This document shows, in pieces, positions 769-19,779 of a stretch of 23,197 nucleotides of DNA. The stretch lies in the IMG/VR virus record IMGVR_UViG_3300020428_000090, positions 1 through 23,197 of that record; one strand, given 5' to 3'. The translations under genes and the position numbers were made by a program. The notes below the pieces were generated by a model. That model worked only from the letters and a program-made list of their open reading frames with translations, made no database searches and was not told where the DNA came from. Position 1 is the stretch's first letter. Every line of letters begins with the position of its first letter. This DNA comes from a virus.

Positions 769-2541
769 ATGCGAGTAGTTTTTGATCTTGAGACGGATGG
801 TCTTCTACCTGAGCTCACCAAGATCCATTGCATTGGTTTGAAGTACATTTCGAGTGAGCTTTTCTATGAAGACACTGAGCTGCGCTTTACTCCCACCGGG
901 AAGCTGGAGGCATTAGCTGCGCTAGAGAAAGCTGACGAGATCATTGGTCACAACATCATTGCTTTCGATATCCCGGCGATCAAAAAGATTTACCCAGAGT
1001 TCAGCCCCAAAGGAAAGATCACAGACACTCTTGTGTTAAGCCGACTCATCAAGCCAAATCTTTCTGAAGATGATCGCCTCGTAATGTTCAATAAGCCCTT
1101 CCCAAAAAGTCTCTATGGCTCGCATAGTTTGACTGCTTGGGGACTAAGGCTTGGCAACCTCAAAGGCGACTACAACGGTGGCTGGGAGAAGTTCTCCGTC
1201 GAGATGGCAGACTACTGCAAGCAAGACGTGAACGTAACCACGCAGCTCTATGAGCTCTTAATGCAAGCAAACTTTGATCCGAGATGCGTTGAGCTAGAGC
1301 ATGACTTGGCAGAGATCTGTGACCGCATTGGCAACGCCGGGTGGACATTTGATTCTAAGAAAGCTGGTGAGCTATATGCTCAGTTCTGTCAGCGTCGATC
1401 AACTTTGAGTATGCAGCTCGGTGAGCTCTTTGAACCTTGGCAAGAGGAAGAAGAGTTCATTCCAAAGCGAGACAACAAGACCCGGGGCTATAAGAAAGGT
1501 GTGCCATTCATAAAGAAGACAACAGTCCACTTTAATCCGAACAGTCGCCAGCACATAGCCCACTGTCTCAAGACTAAATATAAGTGGAAGCCAAAGGAGC
1601 TCACGCCAACCGGGGAAGCCAAGATTGACGAAAGCACGCTCGGGGAGCTGCCTTACCCAGAAGCAGGAAAGCTAGCTGAAATGTTTCTGTTGCAGAAGCG
1701 AATCGGCATGTTAGCGGAGGGCTCTAATGCGTGGATGAAGCTCGTCAATGGCGACACAAGGCTAAGACATCAGATCATCAGCGGCGGCACTGTAAGCGGC
1801 AGAGCTGCCCACAGGAATCCTAATTTAGGCCAAGTGCCCGGACTCCAAAGCCTCTATGGCAAAGAGTGCCGAGAGCTCTTCACTGTGCCGCAAGGATGGG
1901 TGCTGCTCGGAGCTGACTTGAGCGGCCTTGAGCTCAGATGCTTGGCGCACTATTTGTCTGCTTGGGATAACGGTGACTACGCCAATGAGATTATGTCAGG
2001 TGACATTCACACTAAGAATCAACATGCAGCTGGGCTGCCCTCAAGAGCTGAAGCAAAGACCTTTATTTACGCGCTGCTCTACGGTGGTGGCAATCGGCTC
2101 ATAGGCGACATCGTGGGCAAAAGCTCCGTTGTTGGGGCAAAGCTCAAGAGAAACTTTGAGCAAGCAATACCGGCTTATAAGAAGCTCCAAGAGAAGCTCG
2201 GCAGCACACTCCGTGACCGAGGCCACATTAGAGGTCTGGACGGTCGCAAACTGACAGTGAGGAGCGAACACAAAGCGCTCTCGCAGCTGCTCCAGAGTGC
2301 CGGGGCAATTCTCTGCAAACAATGGGTAAAACTTATCGATGACTGCTTAGATCCAAAAGACGCTTACATCGTTGGCTGGATTCACGACGAAGTACAAATC
2401 GCAATCCGAAATAAGGAGTTAGCAGAACATGTCGGTAATCAATCTGAACGAGTGGCGCAAGAAGCTGGCAGAGCGTTCAACCTCAAAATTCCCATCGAAG
2501 CCGAATGGAAAATCGGGCAAACGTGGGCAGACACTCACTGA
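769..2541 (+). CDS. Family A DNA polymerase, T7 gp5-type, with 3'-5' exonuclease
   Basis: This is the replicative DNA polymerase, 590 aa. The start is the ATG at 769, six bases after GGAG, rather than the in-frame TTG at 757. The proofreading domain shows D6-x-E8, D67 in GHNIIAFD and D153 in YCKQD. The polymerase domain has motif A GADLSGLELR (D383), motif B with R426, K430, Y434 and Y438, and motif C WIHDEVQ (D540). The final WADTH parallels the T7 C-terminus. Y434 occupies the position of E. coli Pol I Phe762, where an aromatic residue is usual in virulent phages. T7 gp5 is 704 aa. The difference lies mainly in the thumb: where T7 carries its long thioredoxin-binding loop, only about 30 mostly charged residues precede FNPNSRQHI. 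Processivity may therefore not depend on host thioredoxin. Confidence 0.97.
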   Translation: MRVVFDLETDGLLPELTKIHCIGLKYISSELFYEDTELRFTPTGKLEALAALEKADEIIGHNIIAFDIPAIKKIYPEFSPKGKITDTLVLSRLIKPNLSEDDRLVMFNKPFPKSLYGSHSLTAWGLRLGNLKGDYNGGWEKFSVEMADYCKQDVNVTTQLYELLMQANFDPRCVELEHDLAEICDRIGNAGWTFDSKKAGELYAQFCQRRSTLSMQLGELFEPWQEEEEFIPKRDNKTRGYKKGVPFIKKTTVHFNPNSRQHIAHCLKTKYKWKPKELTPTGEAKIDESTLGELPYPEAGKLAEMFLLQKRIGMLAEGSNAWMKLVNGDTRLRHQIISGGTVSGRAAHRNPNLGQVPGLQSLYGKECRELFTVPQGWVLLGADLSGLELRCLAHYLSAWDNGDYANEIMSGDIHTKNQHAAGLPSRAEAKTFIYALLYGGGNRLIGDIVGKSSVVGAKLKRNFEQAIPAYKKLQEKLGSTLRDRGHIRGLDGRKLTVRSEHKALSQLLQSAGAILCKQWVKLIDDCLDPKDAYIVGWIHDEVQIAIRNKELAEHVGNQSERVAQEAGRAFNLKIPIEAEWKIGQTWADTH

Positions 2542-2815
2542 TTCTCAGCTCGCTCACATCGAAGCGTGGACCGAAGAGATGAGTGACTTGATCAGTATTT
2601 ACTTTGTCCTCGATTCGTCCAAGAAAAGCCCCTTCACAGTGAAATCTAAGTTCGCCCGGGACTGCGCTGAATGGATCGGGTTTTGTGCTTCAGAAGGCTT
2701 CATCACGACGAAAGTGGACCATCAAGCGTGGGACAACAAGTGGCGCATCACAGTAAGTGGAAATCAACTACACAGGGATCTAGAAGATGAACTCAGTCAA
2801 CTCACTAAGCAATAA
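2429..2815 (+). CDS. Hypothetical protein, 128 aa, overlapping the polymerase gene
   Basis: I do not recognise this protein. The ATG at 2429 follows AAGGAGTTAGCAGAAC, a good Shine-Dalgarno sequence lying inside the polymerase gene, so the first 38 codons overlap the polymerase C-terminus in another frame (113 bases). The N-terminal 35 residues are basic (RKK, SKxxxKxxGKRG). The rest forms a compact acidic-to-neutral domain with W48, W82, W100 and W105. An alternative start is the ATG at 2578, inside EEMSDL, but it lacks an equally good ribosome site. Its place between polymerase and exonuclease suggests a role in DNA replication or nucleic acid binding, which is inference. Confidence 0.75.
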   Translation: MSVINLNEWRKKLAERSTSKFPSKPNGKSGKRGQTLTDSQLAHIEAWTEEMSDLISIYFVLDSSKKSPFTVKSKFARDCAEWIGFCASEGFITTKVDHQAWDNKWRITVSGNQLHRDLEDELSQLTKQ

Positions 2816-4220: not shown

Positions 4221-4583
4221 ATGAGTATTGATGATGCAAAGCCAAGCGAGTGGGATGCACTGAGAAGCGGCTATAAGATTACTGAGACTATCAGCGAGCC
4301 CGGGCAAACAGATGTAGTGAGATGCCCTGAGCACTATCGGGATGGTGACATCGAGTGCATCGATGCGCTGCGGTCCATGACTACCAAAGAAGAATTCATT
4401 GGCTACTGCCGCTGCAATGCAGTCAAGTATGTCTGGAGACTACCGCACAAAGGCAAGAGCAACGCAGCTAAGATTCAAGACGCTGAGAAGGCTATCGTCT
4501 ATCTGGAGTGGCTAATAGAAGCAATGAAAGAAAGACGTGATGACATCAGACACTTTGAAGATCGGTCTCTAGTTCATCCGTAG
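4221..4583 (+). CDS. DUF3310 family protein (T7 gp1.7-related)
   Basis: This 120-residue protein matches the DUF3310 signature: HYRDGDIECIDAL at about residues 39-51, then NAVKYVWRLPHKGK and a helix beginning DAEKAIVYLEWLIE. The family includes the C-terminal part of T7 gp1.7, a nucleotide kinase acting on dTMP/dGMP, so a role in nucleotide metabolism or in sensing nucleotides is possible. No Walker motif is present and the biochemical activity is not deducible here. GGAG lies ten bases before the ATG. It is separated from the upstream gene by 150 bases that hold copies of the repeated motif and only a weak candidate -10 (CATAAT, 4163-4168). Its UAG stop lies within the inverted repeat that opens the downstream noncoding region. 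Confidence 0.88.
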   Translation: MSIDDAKPSEWDALRSGYKITETISEPGQTDVVRCPEHYRDGDIECIDALRSMTTKEEFIGYCRCNAVKYVWRLPHKGKSNAAKIQDAEKAIVYLEWLIEAMKERRDDIRHFEDRSLVHP

Positions 4584-4936
4584 TTAGCTGAGTGTTCCCC
4601 GGCTGCTGTGGATTGGGCTCAATTGTGACGATCCCGGAGACACCCAAGTTCGCCTAGCCTTGTCTGACAGCAACCGAGGAACCTTGGGGATACTACAGAA
4701 AACCTACGCAAAAGACCACAAATTCAATTGTACTGACCTATAGGAGAGATGATCCTTAACCGACACTCTCTCGACTCTTAGGATACCGACTAGGGCTCCT
4801 AGCTGCTCAAGATTACATGAGTGTAGGACTTGGGCTAACCAGATCTATGACAAGGGCTTTGGTGTATCTATTAGAGATAATATCAATGACATATTACTTA
4901 TAGAAACACTCAGCTCTTGGAACACTCAGCTAACTA
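4581..4936. repeat. 18-bp perfect inverted repeat, arms 320 bases apart
   Basis: TAGTTAGCTGAGTGTTCC at 4581-4598 is the exact reverse complement of GGAACACTCAGCTAACTA at 4919-4936, and a G-U pair (4580 with 4937) would extend it. The left arm begins at the UAG stop codon of the DUF3310 gene. In RNA this would be a long stem closing a domain of about 356 nt; in DNA it would be a pair of opposed binding sites. Confidence 0.85.
4731..4750 (+). promoter_or_regulatory. T7-like promoter core candidate (CTATAGGAGAGA)
   Basis: CTATAG at 4738-4743 is followed by GAGAGA, closely resembling the T7 class initiation region CTATAGGGAGA. The bases further upstream do not match T7 well, as expected if a different polymerase reads it. 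It lies in the noncoding region before the virion genes. No phage RNA polymerase gene is in this window, so the assignment is conjectural. Confidence 0.25.
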
Positions 4937-4950
4937 TAGATAACTATAGA
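4931..4950 (+). promoter_or_regulatory. Tandem TAACTATAGA repeat, promoter-core candidate
   Basis: The decamer TAACTATAGA occurs twice head to tail (4931-4940 and 4941-4950). ACTATAGA is also the core of T7/SP6-type promoters. TAACTATA recurs at 714-721 in front of the DNA polymerase gene. The first copy partly lies in the right arm of the inverted repeat. A weak host-type reading also exists (TTGGAA 4917-4922, 18 bases, TAACTA). This is the best candidate start for the late operon that I can find, but it remains weak. Confidence 0.3.
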
Positions 4951-4960
4951 GTCATCTATG

Positions 4961-4980
4961 GTCAATAGCTTTGTATTGAC
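4961..4980 (+). other. Hairpin GTCAATA / TATTGAC
   Basis: GTCAATA (4961-4967) and TATTGAC (4974-4980) pair perfectly around the loop GCTTTG. The right arm also belongs to an alternative stem, TTGACTG (4976-4982) with CAGTTCAA (4993-5000, one bulge), so the two cannot coexist. No T run follows, so it is not a terminator. Confidence 0.5.
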
Positions 4981-5027
4981 TGGAGTGTTCGTCAGTTCAA
5001 CGAATGTGTGCCAAAGAGGAAGATACC

Positions 5028-5049
5028 GAAGAGAGACTGAAGAGAGACT
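5028..5049 (+). repeat. Perfect 11-base tandem repeat GAAGAGAGACT x2
   Basis: GAAGAGAGACT occurs twice without a gap (5028-5038, 5039-5049). The second copy contains the segment that resembles the 5' strand of a group I intron P7 helix. The first copy offers an alternative partner for the same downstream sequence. Confidence 0.8.
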
Positions 5050-5220
5050 AAGGATCGGTCCCAATTCCTAAACAACAAATCCAACCCTATTCCAATAAAT
5101 TTTTCGATTTCGGCCGGATAGTCCTGCAGATGATACGGATTCGATATCCTTTGGCAGAGATCATGAACTACATCAATGACTTAGGAATCTACTGTCGATC
5201 TTTTGGGACTCCAGCGCCCT

Positions 5221-5257
5221 AAATCGAGCCCCATTGGGCCTAATCTCAAGTCGATTT
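5221..5257 (+). other. Compound hairpin with a competing upstream pairing partner
   Basis: AAATCGA (5221-5227) pairs with TCGATTT (5251-5257), enclosing GCCC-CATT-GGGC (5228-5239). The same AAATCGA is also perfectly complementary to TCGATTT at 5104-5110, so two exclusive folds are possible. A run of seven A, not T, follows, which argues against a terminator. Confidence 0.5.
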
Positions 5258-5273
5258 CAAAAAAATGTTAAAG

Positions 5274-5297
5274 GTTGTCGTTGTTGTTGTTGTTGTC
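5274..5297 (+). repeat. GTT/GTC triplet microsatellite
   Basis: Eight consecutive triplets read GTT, GTC, five GTT and GTC. The tract ends 11 bases before the ribosome site of the mini-gene at 5323. It is untranslated if that start is right. It may be an unstructured leader segment keeping the ribosome site open; this is inference. Confidence 0.85.
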
Positions 5298-5322
5298 CCA
5301 CCCTTTCAAGGAGACCCAAATT

Positions 5323-5478
5323 TTGAAATTTAACATTAGTAACGATTGGTCAACTGGTCAGCAGTTCAAGGTCTTGCCTGAGCTAGAGATCACGTTAGAA
5401 AACATCCATGAATCCACCACGCTGCGCGTATTGCGCTTAGGTTGGCTCACGCATTCCCTTTGGATCGAAAGGAAATAA
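5323..5478 (+). CDS. Mini-gene with TTG start, 51-aa protein
   Basis: The TTG at 5323 lies nine bases after AAGGAG (5308-5313), and the 51-codon frame ends three bases before the tail collar gene. Reading in from 5275 would translate the GTT microsatellite and is unlikely. The protein begins MKFNISNDWSTGQQF and ends LRLGWLTHSLWIERK. Short phage proteins with a similar plan (an N-terminal beta segment and a C-terminal W/L-rich amphipathic strand) occur beside tail genes in other phages, but I know no function. The last 15 residues might associate with a membrane or virion surface. It is probably the first gene of the late operon. Confidence 0.7.
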   Translation: MKFNISNDWSTGQQFKVLPELEITLENIHESTTLRVLRLGWLTHSLWIERK

Positions 5479-5481
5479 CTT

Positions 5482-6213
5482 ATGACACTCGAAAGTGGCA
5501 CTTACATCAACTCGCTTGACGATAGTAACCCAGCAGCGACAGATAGCCTTGGTCAGGCCGATGATCACATAAAGTTAATCAAGGCAACCATCAAACGCAC
5601 CTTTCCGTTCATCACTGGAGCCGTCACCGCCACTCATACGGCCCTCAATGCGGCCACCCCGGCAGCCATAACAACCGATGGTTCGACGCCCAGCTTGGCA
5701 TCAGGCATCACAGCAGCTGAGGTCCAGACCCTCATTGGTGTCACCCCGGCAGCAATCACTAGTGACGGCAGCACCCCCAGTTTAGCTAGCGGCATTACCG
5801 CAGCCGAAGTAAGAACTCTAGTCACTGTGCCAACTTTGCTCGAAGTGTACCCAGTGGGCGCTATCTATATGTCAGTAGTCAGCACCACCCCTGCGACTCT
5901 CTTTGGTGGCACTTGGGCAGCTCTTGCAGCTGGTAAAGTCTTAGTGGGCCTCGATGCGAGCGACACTGACTTTGATACTGCTGAAGAGACAGGGGGAGCC
6001 AAGACGCACACGCTGTCAATCGCAGAAATGCCAGCTCACACACATGACGTCCTTTATCAAGAGATCGATGATGTCGGTGTCACTACTCATCCCGGGGGAA
6101 CGCAGCCCGGTGACCCCACTGCAACAATTGCTACCCAGAGCACCGGGGGCGGTGGAGCTCACAATAACTTACAGCCTTACTTGGTCTGCTACATGTGGAA
6201 AAGGACAGCTTAA
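5482..6213 (+). CDS. Tail-tip collar-type protein with internal tandem repeat
   Basis: This 243-residue structural protein has an N-terminal segment typical of phage tail-tip proteins (YINSLDDSNPAATDSL, then DDHIKLIKATIKRTFP). The C-terminal collar-like domain carries PVGAIYMS, TLFGGTW, GKVLVGLD, THTLSIAEMPAHTH, a GGGGAHNNLQPY turn and a final YMWKRT. Such domains trimerise, and the His-rich AHTHD loop often binds metal. Residues 59-87 and 88-116 are a tandem repeat with about 25 of 29 positions identical. AAAGGAA precedes the ATG by seven bases. It probably forms a tail tip or short fibre and contacts the neighbouring nozzle-like protein or fibre. Confidence 0.85.
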   Translation: MTLESGTYINSLDDSNPAATDSLGQADDHIKLIKATIKRTFPFITGAVTATHTALNAATPAAITTDGSTPSLASGITAAEVQTLIGVTPAAITSDGSTPSLASGITAAEVRTLVTVPTLLEVYPVGAIYMSVVSTTPATLFGGTWAALAAGKVLVGLDASDTDFDTAEETGGAKTHTLSIAEMPAHTHDVLYQEIDDVGVTTHPGGTQPGDPTATIATQSTGGGGAHNNLQPYLVCYMWKRTA

Positions 6214-12548: not shown

Positions 12549-15500
12549 ATGTATTCAGCTCAACAATATGAGTCAGGCATTCGCAAAGCGTATGCAGCTG
12601 GCGACTATGAATCTGCACAATATCTGACTAACCAATATAAGCAGAGTATTGCTCCAAATATTGAACCGGGACAGCGCGACAATCCGTTTGAGTACTCTAT
12701 TGATCAAGCACAAAAAATGCTTGGCGCTGGCGTGGAAACTGTCGGTCGAGGATTCAATAGCAACATACTCCAGCAATACGGTCAGAACGTCCAAGCTCAA
12801 CAAGACATCGACATAGCGCGAGGCGGTTATCAATCCGCGCACCCGGATGACCTCATCGACACATACAAAAACAAAGGTTGGGCAGGAGTTGTAGCCGCTA
12901 TTCCCACGAAAGCAGCGGAGTCTTCTGCCTCTGGAGGTGCTGCCATAGTCGGCACAGGTCTAGCAGCTGCCTCAAGTCTTGTAGGCGCTCCAGCATGGAT
13001 GACAGCAGTCATAGGTTACACAACGCTCGGTACTACCTTCGGACTTGGCGTGGGTGAAGCAACGCTAGAGCAAAAAGAAAAACTCAACGACTTTGACACA
13101 GCCACTTCGGTTGGCACTGGTATCGTCATTGCGTTACTGGACCGAGTTGGCGCGAAGGGTGTCATCCCGACCGATGCACTCCAAAAAATGTCTGTCAATG
13201 AAATCGAAAAAGCCCTCAGAGATGCTGGCCGAGAAGGTGCAGCTCAAGCGTTTGGGTCTGCTATAAAAAACACTGGCAAGGCGACAGGCAAAGAATTTGC
13301 AACAGAAGGTGCTCAAGAACTCGCGATTATGGGAGGCGCTGCTACTCAAGGCGCAGAATACACGCCCCGAGAGATTGCCGGGAGAACCTTAGATGCCTCG
13401 GCAGCTGGTGGCTTCACTGGTGGAGCTGTGCGAGCTCCCATTGAGATCGGTAGTGCTGCCTACAATGCATTGCCACAAGCTCCCACCCGGGAGACTGTCG
13501 AAAATGAGGTTTTAGCTCCAGCTGCACAAGCAGTATCGAGCGTTCTAGGTGACAGACGAGAAACTGGTGACCCAACCGAGCAGGGGGCTAAGGCAGAGGT
13601 TGCTCGGCGTCTTTTGGAACAACAAGCAGTCAACAACTTTAATTTAGAAGATGTAAATGTTGGCAGTACTGATGGTGCAAGAGCTGCAATTGATGATTTA
13701 CACGTTGAGATTGTTTCGCAGATTTCTGGTCAGGGTGAGATTTCGAGGGATGAAGACGGCCATATCGAAGACATTACTCCCGGCAACGGTGGTCTTCTTG
13801 CTCAGATAAAACAAGCGTACAACTTGAACGCCAATCAGTTGCGGATATTGAATAAAATTGTCAAGAAAGCTGGCAACAAGGTAAAAAATAAAGTTACAAA
13901 TACTGACATACAGGAGATCGGACAGATACTAGGCAACACCCCTGATTCCTTGCAATTAATTAATCTACTTTTGCAAAGTAACGAAATAACGAATATACAC
14001 AGCGGAGGCTATAAGGGCGGCATTTCGCGGTTTACCGATATGTTCAATCCGCTCGATACTGCTCGCGGCAACTACAATCCAATGAACATGCTGGGCAGCC
14101 CACAAAATATTTTAGCAACTGGTGGGGCTTTGGCGACGCAGGGCGCTACGCTAGGCATTCCTTTGGCTGGTAGAGCAATTGATAAGTACGTTCCCATAGT
14201 CGGTGGCAGACGCTCCCCGGTAGCAAAATATTTACGAGACAACATCAATAAGCCAGCGTTGCCATTGGCTAGCGGTCCAAGCCTCATCGCCGCCGCAAAA
14301 AGAGCTCAAGAGCAAGAAGATGCAGAAGCTGCCAGCTTTGAACGTGCTGGGCAAAACTTGCTTGATGAACAGTTAGCGACAGGAGGTGATCCAAATCTCG
14401 GCAGTCCTCGGGACATATTTGGTCAGGGAACTGGCTTGAGCACTATCGATGCGATTGAAGCGCTTGAGCAAATGGCGAGCGAAACAACTAATGAGGACGT
14501 GCGAGCAGTTTTGCAAGCTAACATTGACTCACTAAGGTCTGGCACTCAGGCCGCACCGCAAATGTCAAATGTAGTAGCGGCGCTCCGCAATCGAGTGCTT
14601 AGTGATCCCGAGCTGCAAGCAAAAGCAGTGTCTGAACCTCAACGAACTGGCGCTGGTTTTAATCTTCAGCAACCTCAAGCTCAAGGAGCTGCACCAGTTG
14701 CACCGGGCATGACGCAACAGCAAATCAACTATGAGCGAGGCGTTCAAGCTAACAAAGACAGAGCTGCAAAGTTGCAATCTGATCTGATGGCAGACAATGG
14801 TGTAAGCGCAGTTGACAAGGCTGTCATTGGTACAGCGCTGGATGAGCTCCAATATGGAAACTTAGGCGTCGATCCAATCCAAAGCCTAAACAACATAGTT
14901 CAACGGATGAGAGAGGCAAATGTTGCTACAGAGGCTATGGATACTTATCTCATGCCAGCGTTGACAGCTATTGCTGAACAGCAAGCAAGAAATCCTCAAG
15001 GGAGTCAGACAGAGTTAAATTTTAGTCGATTAGCACCAGACGCAGACCAAGAAGCTCAACTAACACAAGCTAAGGTCACAAACATTGACATCTTGCCGAC
15101 AGAACAAGAAGTAGGCCAGATGAGAGAAGGGACTTTCAAGCCTAAAAAAGTTATCACAAAGTCACAAGCTGGAAAAATTTTGGAGAAGCGTTGGCAAGAA
15201 GCAACAGGACGAACAGAACCTTTTGAATACACCCCAGAAAATATAGATCTGCTTGCTGACTACATGGCTGAAGAAGGCATTCACAATTTGTCTCGTGATG
15301 GCAATGCAGTTGGTTGGTATGACAGAAAACTCAAGGCGGCAAAAGCTGTTCTAGAGCTCGTTGATCCTCGGATTACTGAGAGCTATGAAAACGAAGTTAT
15401 CTTTGATTTTCTGCTCGCTGTTACCTCTAATGGACAAGCGGTTGTATTTAATTTTCAGCACGCACACACGCTTTTCAAAAGATATCTTGATACCGGGCTA

Positions 15501-17797: not shown

Positions 17798-18239
17798 TTC
17801 GCGGTCAGGCAAAAGTCATTTTTTTTCAAATCTTATGTCTACCCCGGAAGGGCGAGCTCTTCGCAAGCAGTGGTCCACAAAACCTCGAAAGAACGCTGGA
17901 AGACCAATGGGCGTCCCAGATGGTCACTCGCAAGAGAGTTTTGCGCCAGTTAGAGAGGAAGCAAGAGTCTATGCAGACAAGGTTGTGAAAATTATGAAGA
18001 AAGAATTTGACATTGAAGACGAGTATCAAACGGAAGCTCTGAGAACAGCAGTTGAAGTTATGCGGCTCGATGGGCAGACGCGAGAAAAGCTAGCAGCTGC
18101 TCGCCTAGTGCTCGACTTCACGAAATCAAAGCCAGCTGCAAAGTCTGATGTCACCATCAGTGCAGCTGAAGATTTCTTGGCGAGCGTCATGAGAGAAATT
18201 GAGGATATTGATGGATCAACTGAAGAAGATTCGACATAG
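17736..18239 (+). CDS. Probable terminase small subunit, TTG start, 167 aa
   Basis: TerS recognises the phage genome and regulates the TerL motor. The best start is TTG at 17736, six bases after AGGAGG within a run of GAG repeats. The N-terminal 60 residues are very basic and probably bind DNA (KKERKKKPQKE, KPRKNAGRPMGVPDG). Residues about 70-135 are helical (REEARVYADKVVKIM, RTAVEVMRLDGQTREKLAAARLVLDF), with the R-x-x-A-A-x-x-x-L-D phrase usual for TerS-like proteins near KPAAKSDV. The C-terminus is acidic (DIDGSTEEDST). It overlaps the upstream gene by 62 bases and TerL by 29. The identification depends mainly on position directly before TerL plus this layout. Confidence 0.75.
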   Translation: MSQQKKERKKKPQKELTHPNNSRSGKSHFFSNLMSTPEGRALRKQWSTKPRKNAGRPMGVPDGHSQESFAPVREEARVYADKVVKIMKKEFDIEDEYQTEALRTAVEVMRLDGQTREKLAAARLVLDFTKSKPAAKSDVTISAAEDFLASVMREIEDIDGSTEEDST

Positions 18240-19779
18240 ATTAGCAATTGATTTTCCCCTTTATGCAAAAACTGCACTGAAAATCAGAACGAAGGTTGGT
18301 CAGATTGCACCGCTCCAATTAAACGCAGCGCAAACAATTCTGCACAATGCAGTCACTGATCAAATCGCAAATGAAGGCAAAGTCAGAGTCATCATTCTGA
18401 AAGCCCGACAGCAAGGTTTATCCACTTACACTGGCGGCTATCTCTATTGGAGTGTGAGCCAAAAAGCCGCTCAAAAAGCGATGGTAGTGACGCATCACTC
18501 TGACTCTACGAGAGCGCTATTTGACATGACGAAGCGCTATCACGAGAACTGTCCACAGATACTCAAGCCGCACACAAAGTATTCCTCCAGACGCGAAATG
18601 AACTTCGATGTGCTCGATAGCTCATTCATCGTAAGTACTGCTGGGGGTGAGGCAATTGGTCGTGGCGAAACACTGACGCACGTCCACGCTTCAGAGCTCG
18701 CATTCTGGCAAAAAAGCACAGCGCTCGACAACTGGAATGGTCTGACCCAAGCCGTACCAAATGCGCCCGGGACAGCCGTGTTTGTCGAATCTACTGCAAA
18801 CGGTATTACTGGTGTTTTCTACGACCTATGGAAAGGCGCAGTCGAAGGAACGAATGGCTATGTGCCTGTGTTTATTCCGTGGTTTACCGACCCGGACTAC
18901 CGCGAAAAAGTCCCGGATCATTTTGAGCGTACTCCCGAAGAAGAAAATCTTGTAGACGAATATGATCTCGACGATGAGCAGCTGATGTTCAGACGGCGAA
19001 AGATTGCTCAAAACGGCCTTGATTTGTTTCGTCAGGAATACCCAGCGGAACCAGATGAAGCATTCTTGACCACAGGTCGCCCGGTGTTCAACCCGGAGCA
19101 ATTGCAAAAACGTCTCAAAGATCGGAGGCAGCTCCGTGAGCGCATGGCTCTGGAAGGCGGCGAATGGGTAAACAATGCCCGGGGTGAGCTCTCGACATTC
19201 CTCATGCATGACGAAGGCGAGCAGTACATTATTGGCGCTGACGTTGCGATGGGTGTACGAAATGGCGACTACTCAGTGGCAACTGTGCTTGATTCAAAGA
19301 AACGCCAAGTTGCCATCTGGCGAGGCCACGTTCACCCGGACTATTTTGCAGAGATCCTTTATGAGCTCGGCGGCTATTACAACGAAGCATTCATCATTGT
19401 CGAGAACAACAGTCACGGCATTTTGACCTGTACACGCCTCGGCAAAGATATGGCATACCCCAACTTTTTCACAGACGTTTCCGTGGATAAGCTGACTGAA
19501 AAAGAAACAATCAAGCTCGGTTTTACGACAACGGTTAAAACAAAACCTTTGATCATTGACGAGCTCAGGGCAGCTGTCAGGGACGAAGAAATCGAAATAA
19601 ATTGTGCAGTAACTTTGCGCGAAATGCTGAGTTACATCGTGACGGAAAGTGGCGCGATGCAAGCTGAAGTGAACTGTTTTGACGATTGTGTGATGTCGCT
19701 TGCATTAGCTAATCACGTTCACGAGGGTGCGTGGGAGCCAATCGAATCCCACGATGATTATTACCTAGAGGCCATCTAA
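18211..19779 (+). CDS. terL: Terminase large subunit
   Basis: TerL is the DNA-packaging motor and nuclease, 522 aa from the ATG at 18211, which follows GAGG by about seven bases; TTG at 18199 is an inferior choice. The ATPase domain has a variant Walker A, KARQQGLST (64-72), where the usual GK[S/T] is replaced, as in a known subset of phage terminases. The Walker B/catalytic strand is THVHASE (E162), with S161 in place of the usual acidic residue, and VESTANG follows as coupling motif. The RNase H-like nuclease has D344 (GADVAMG), E398 (VENNSHG) and D491/D492 (CFDDCVMS). Overlap with TerS and adjacency to the portal are as in P22-type modules. The variant suggests headful packaging but does not prove it. 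Confidence 0.95.
   Translation: MDQLKKIRHRLAIDFPLYAKTALKIRTKVGQIAPLQLNAAQTILHNAVTDQIANEGKVRVIILKARQQGLSTYTGGYLYWSVSQKAAQKAMVVTHHSDSTRALFDMTKRYHENCPQILKPHTKYSSRREMNFDVLDSSFIVSTAGGEAIGRGETLTHVHASELAFWQKSTALDNWNGLTQAVPNAPGTAVFVESTANGITGVFYDLWKGAVEGTNGYVPVFIPWFTDPDYREKVPDHFERTPEEENLVDEYDLDDEQLMFRRRKIAQNGLDLFRQEYPAEPDEAFLTTGRPVFNPEQLQKRLKDRRQLRERMALEGGEWVNNARGELSTFLMHDEGEQYIIGADVAMGVRNGDYSVATVLDSKKRQVAIWRGHVHPDYFAEILYELGGYYNEAFIIVENNSHGILTCTRLGKDMAYPNFFTDVSVDKLTEKETIKLGFTTTVKTKPLIIDELRAAVRDEEIEINCAVTLREMLSYIVTESGAMQAEVNCFDDCVMSLALANHVHEGAWEPIESHDDYYLEAI

Follow-up and report, generated by a model that had tools for sequence, protein, structure and literature searches.

The window, i.e., the whole stretch of DNA that was analysed, is a viral fragment of 23,197 bases. 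Its nearest proteins in sequenced phages share less than 50% identity, and no isolated phage matches it at the nucleotide level. A DUF3310 gene (4221-4583) closes with its stop codon at 4583 and the next gene, p51, begins at 5323. Between them lies the interval considered here, 4584-5322 on the plus strand. No other gap in the window comes close in size: with ORFs down to 45 aa counted, it measures 691 bases vs 104 for the next one. No ORF of at least 60 aa lies wholly within it. A hidden small gene was considered and dropped, as none of the 28 stop-to-stop frames of the interval has a convincing homologue in related phages (tblastn, best E 0.1). The preliminary description had proposed about 740 bases without a credible gene at the boundary of early-type and late-type genes. 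Both statements are confirmed: the gap measures 739 bases, DNA polymerase, exonuclease and DUF3310 genes lie upstream, tail and virion genes downstream.

The p51 gene (5323-5478, plus strand) codes for 51 aa without a family match. It has a TTG start, a ribosome binding site AAGGAG nine bases ahead (5308-5313) and homologues in 11 relatives. It heads the tail/virion operon and is followed by the tail gene (5482-6213, plus strand). Within the tail protein, PAAITTDGSTPSLASGITAAEVQTLIGVT is repeated as a near copy. Elsewhere in the window, a 171-aa ORF on the minus strand (98-613), upstream of the polymerase gene, has no family match, and ARAGORN found no tRNAs.

With the window's 542-aa virion protein as a query, 80 contigs were retrieved at 50-67% identity. 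The sufficiently long ones are largely syntenic in the order polymerase, exonuclease, often DUF3310 or ribonucleotide reductase, gap, (p51), tail and virion protein. A T7-type RNA polymerase is encoded in 11 of 12 relatives tested; the window fragment itself has none. Similarly, a tyrosine integrase is present in most near-complete relatives and lacking from the window, which is a fragment. The large terminase (18199-19779, plus strand) is T4 gp17-like by sequence comparison, i.e., of the headful type. The genome is thus a mosaic in which a T7-type replication block (757-2541 in the window; the RNA polymerase in relatives) is joined to a T4-type terminase, and the family as a whole combines T7-type expression and replication with a T4-type packaging motor. 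The starting point of near-complete contigs varies widely along the genome, which would be expected if the DNA were permuted. None of the contigs examined was reported to have a terminal repeat.

A prophage of this family, about 40 kb in length, resides in a tRNA-Lys(ttt) gene of a complete SAR116-family genome of 2,753,527 bases (G034:C1, approximately 384.6-424.6 kb; L290, L285, L291). The window's family can therefore be temperate. SAR116 is the likely host group of the phage. Among the prophage genes is one for a T7 gp4-like primase-helicase, whose ORF start was read by eye. The best explanation of the locus is that early and late genes meet here in a family of temperate marine podoviruses whose RNA polymerase is of the T7 type and whose terminase is of the T4 type.

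When the interval is compared with its counterparts, two halves emerge. The 5' half, 4584 to about 5055, has no blastn match to any relative, whereas the 3' half has 42. The 3' half, approximately 5056-5322, is strongly conserved in more than 100 related phage contigs and is positioned nearly always just 5' of the same tail gene. An alignment of 29 diverse phages shows a fixed order of boxes. It begins with GTCCCNATTT, CCAATAAATTT and CTAATGTC, followed by a hairpin of the type NNGAT-n5-RTCNN, then by GGGACTCC or GGTACC, GACCCCCnnTGGGTC, TTCAAAAA, CTAAAGG, (GTT)n and GAGAG. In the window the upstream boxes GGTCCCAATT and CCAATAAATTT (5057-5102, plus strand) are conserved among phages only. The hairpin is located at 5136-5150 (plus strand), and its outermost pair is broken in the window. 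Downstream lies a module which is common to phages and to islands in SAR116 genomes, as profile models and alignments demonstrate: GGGACTCC, GCCCCATTGGGC, TTCAAAAA, TTAAAGG and (GTT)n at 5179-5294 (plus strand). Immediately 3' of the (GTT)n run (5280-5296, plus strand) the phage and island sequences part. That the noncoding DNA has a selected function, as proposed beforehand, is strongly supported by this ordered set of motifs.

The spread of the module among phages was examined with the pattern TTCAAAA...TAAA...(TTG)n, which matches at least 120 viral contigs. Other proteins of the window's family are encoded at 114 of the 117 analysed loci, and the tail gene is almost always found 70-650 bases 3'. 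Five matches in genome contigs, L226, L228 and L231-L233, are devoid of the remaining motifs and were taken as chance. A profile model built exclusively from the 29 phage copies (R2) detects the module in 38 of 38 further phage loci; these had been collected via the pattern, so the result confirms the wider module and is not independent of the pattern. Fixed genome ends at the module were considered and rejected: contig ends seemingly clustered just upstream of it in the pattern-selected set, where short tandem repeats may break assemblies, and did not clearly do so in the unbiased set.

What kind of signal is conserved? The preliminary description had listed a large structured RNA, an intron, an origin or a control hub. 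Searches of Rfam, including GOLLD, ROOL and group I models, gave no match at gathering scores, and even the permissive E<=5 yielded just two chance matches far below the gathering score. RNAalifold on the 29 phages predicts a single 5-bp hairpin and nothing else paired. This hairpin covaries well, with 93% of cells paired and 22 double changes vs 6.4 in shuffles, U-G pairs included. The covarying pairs for which relatives were to be tested do exist, yet they are confined to this one element without any extended structure. In the module, the most conserved part with about 115 bases, RNAalifold finds no conserved pairs at all. The folding z-score of the 3' half is +1.0 in the window, with a weak mean excess of -1.2 across phages. 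Since the module has no conserved pair and the conserved half folds no better than shuffled sequences in the window, the module looks like a cis-acting DNA site rather than a structured RNA, and the proposals of a large RNA or an intron are not supported.

The 5' half presents a different picture. It holds all three CTATAG sites of the window, the core of T7-type promoters. One is part of a T7-type promoter-like site, CTGACCTATAGGAGAGA (4733-4749, plus strand), with similarly placed counterparts in relatives, e.g., CCCTATAGAGA; two more cores are at 4934-4949 (plus strand). Across 38 phage sequences, some closely related to one another, the equivalent stretch of 750 bases has 2.04 CTATAG cores per kb vs 0.24, an 8.3-fold enrichment. 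Enriched cores and a cognate type of RNA polymerase encoded in relatives are what one finds in a T7-type late promoter region. A 23-nt inverted repeat has its left arm at 4576-4598 and its right arm at 4919-4941, 91% matched. As a conserved motif it was dismissed because just two 16-mer matches were obtained, not above chance. The interval as a whole folds better than expected (z -2.5 on the plus and -3.8 on the minus strand), and the excess is located in the 5' half, where z is about -3 in the window. Across 18 phages the mean z values of the 5' half for the two strands are -2.2 and -2.4, vs -0.6 for coding controls. The initial characterization of the interval as rich in structure is thus correct with respect to the hairpins, the inverted repeat and the overall z-scores, but it applies to the variable 5' half and not to the conserved 3' half. 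By motif and position, the 5' half appears to supply the phage polymerase with promoters and to hold a late leader rich in hairpins; the clustering of promoter-like sites fits the notion of a control hub.

One might extend this view and regard the entire interval as a late 5' leader. Phage RNA polymerase would start at CTATAG, and hairpins, boxes and (GTT)n would act in mRNA stability, processing or translation of the tail operon. The position directly upstream of this operon in nearly all relatives, the enrichment of CTATAG, the hairpins of the 5' half and the U-G pairs of the covarying hairpin all agree with such a role. We nevertheless consider it improbable as an account of the whole, because the most conserved part is without conserved pairing, island copies are not followed by a phage gene on their 3' side, and two islands have the module pointing at the 3' end of a cargo gene.

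Slightly better, though still unlikely, is a replication origin in the conserved half. T7-type origins combine promoter cores, an AT-rich box, a hairpin and repeats. Here promoter cores, the AT-rich box CCAATAAATTT, the hairpin and repeats are found together, and the related prophage has its T7 gp4-like primase-helicase. Transcription from CTATAG would open the AT-rich segment, hairpin and repeats would load the primase-helicase, and islands would have copied the site to be replicated by the helper. Against this it must be held that boxes, hairpin and promoters, the most origin-like elements, are absent from the island copies, which retain the module alone, and that one island contig has a D5-type primase of its own.

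Several relatives have short tandem repeats with differing units directly 5' of the conserved half (L015:1-80, L016:1-95, L023:2740-2840). The T7 terminal repetition likewise has repeats beside it. The T7 primary origin and concatemer junction, with promoter cores for the phage RNA polymerase and short tandem repeats near a conserved cis region, thus resembles the present locus in its CTATAG cores and, in some relatives, in the repeats. It differs in that the region here is situated between early and late genes and goes along with a T4-like terminase.

The module extends beyond phages. The pattern also matches bacterial genomes, at places next to or not far from integrase genes; two of these genomes are recorded as Candidatus Puniceispirillum (SAR116). 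With R2, which contains phage copies only, about 80 copies were detected in 30 of 61 SAR116-family genomes (E<=1e-3). A second model, R1, built from phage and bacterial copies, has matches in 34 of these 61 genomes vs 8 genomes in an even sample of 337 Alphaproteobacteria, and three of these eight are again SAR116 (E<=1e-4). The module is rare in other Alphaproteobacteria. Good copies are nonetheless present in two alphaproteobacteria outside the SAR116 matches (L332 in G373 and L333 in G229), where they directly follow a serine resolvase gene and a tyrosine integrase-like gene.

Apart from the prophage copy, all bacterial copies examined sit in islands or island remnants. Many are apparent remnants or are at contig ends, and boundaries could be fixed for a few. 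In four genomes an integrase gene is within 3 kb of the module in 13 of 29 cases vs 1.5 expected, often with the module directly after the integrase gene. Two islands in tRNA-Leu(gag) are bounded by att repeats which enclose 2.65 and 6.8 kb; the module is positioned 120-190 bases inside one end. The recombinases differ from island to island and comprise DUF6538 tyrosine, short tyrosine and serine resolvase types. The islands carry, among other cargo, genes for a D5-like primase, for an Mrr type IV restriction enzyme, for a DpdF-like helicase and for metabolism. In the islands read, which hold part of the copies, there are no virion genes; phages and integrative islands devoid of virion genes thus share a noncoding site. 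The similarity covers the last 75-115 bases or so only; upstream boxes, hairpin and promoters are absent from the bacterial copies. In the islands mapped in detail the sequence changes right after (GTT)n because the cargo starts there; elsewhere the adjoining DNA may be that of the host.

The proximity to integrase genes raises the question of whether the module is an att-type recombination site with (GTT)n as its core, used by island integrases and possibly allowing islands to enter the phage genome. Island copies often follow directly upon the integrase gene and diverge right after (GTT)n, as such a site would. The related prophage argues otherwise. It is integrated in tRNA-Lys and adjoins its own integrase, and the conserved element is intact 18 kb inside, neither split by integration nor beside the integrase; it is therefore not attP. 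Further, the tRNA-Leu islands have separate att cores of their own at 120-190 bp from the module, and the recombinase type varies between islands. An att function is thus the least probable of the explanations weighed here. On the evidence of the tRNA-Lys prophage and the tRNA-Leu islands, the bacterial copies were also dropped as attP or attR candidates.

The sharing of the module between phages and many islands with different integrases is an observation. Identical modules in islands with different recombinases and att sites point to a shared trans-acting phage factor, which would best explain a site common to a phage family and to islands with unrelated integrases. In the P4/P2 pair, too, the satellite shares a noncoding site with its helper. 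The satellite islands SaPIbov4 and SaPIbov5 carry the cos site of their helper phage (PMC5052747), and from this precedent packaging is the most likely shared function. A headful-type terminase, as encoded in the window, makes a pac site plausible. We propose that the interval combines late promoters for a T7-type RNA polymerase and a leader with a pac-like site for the initiation of packaging which satellite islands have copied, and we assign this reading a probability of slightly above one half. For the module considered on its own, the chances of a packaging role are about even. In this proposal the phage terminase, as the presumed reader, would start packaging at 5179-5294 and cut near (GTT)n. 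SAR116 integrative islands, probably phage-dependent satellites, would have copied the module, and an excised island carrying it would be loaded into phage particles and travel in virions.

Several facts count against packaging. Pac sites usually are in or near terS, and the module is about 12 kb away from the terminase genes. Some copies are located directly after an integrase gene, which would also fit an att role, and a search of viral contigs with one island integrase found no relative. The many apparent remnants and contig-end copies among the bacterial ones weigh against it too. A cis-acting site common to phage and host islands was not foreseen in the original list of functions, from which the control hub fits, an origin is less likely and a large RNA or an intron lacks support.

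How does the proposed packaging site compare with known satellites? As in the cos satellites (SaPIbov4/5; P4 with P2), integrative islands that lack virion genes have a noncoding site in common with a phage, here their presumed helper. The differences are the T4-like terminase, the location at an early/late junction far from the terminase genes and the SAR116 hosts. PICMIs are small satellites of marine Vibrio which are moved by phage and for which pac-like random ends were reported; a cos or pac site in the helper could not be found by the authors (PMC10803314), so a candidate shared site is useful. PICMIs and the SAR116 islands have in common that they are small marine integrative islands with integrase, primase and defence roles; in contrast, the shared site is the main finding here, mobilisation of the islands by phage is presumed, and AlpA was not identified. 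Islands transduced by jumbo phages (PMC12595487) and cargo islands of the tycheposon type are similarly tRNA- or tmRNA-linked, encode a tyrosine integrase, carry cargo for defence or metabolism and are free of transfer genes. Here, however, a family of 40-kb podoviruses would be the helper, and a shared noncoding site provides the link.

A widespread marine phage family and dozens of mobile SAR116 islands thus have a short cis site in common. Should this site serve as a packaging signal, the gene-free DNA of a compact phage is explained, and a sequence handle becomes available for phage-moved islands in uncultured bacteria, in which satellites are otherwise hard to recognise. One may go further and suppose, tentatively and at somewhat less than even odds, that a single noncoding packaging site, that of an uncultivated temperate podovirus family, serves as the common passport of a large and diverse set of islands with cargo or defence genes, present in roughly half of the SAR116 species examined. 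If so, abundant ocean bacteria receive islands with unrelated integrases from one another by way of this one phage family.

The islands have additional features in common. A small related gene of about 60-76 aa, possibly a regulator or an excisionase, recurs beside the module (L313:6312-6542, L316:7427-7657 and 14983-15171 in the L287 region). Two large island proteins, L313:7165-8502 from a SAR116 genome and L332:4796-6310 from another alphaproteobacterium, are alike by eye in a KRKR...DLL stretch; neither has a Pfam match, and they possibly represent a core island gene. In the island L287 (G055:C13), a homologue of the phage protein p128 (window 2429-2815, phrog_1334) is encoded at +295 to +669 past the module.
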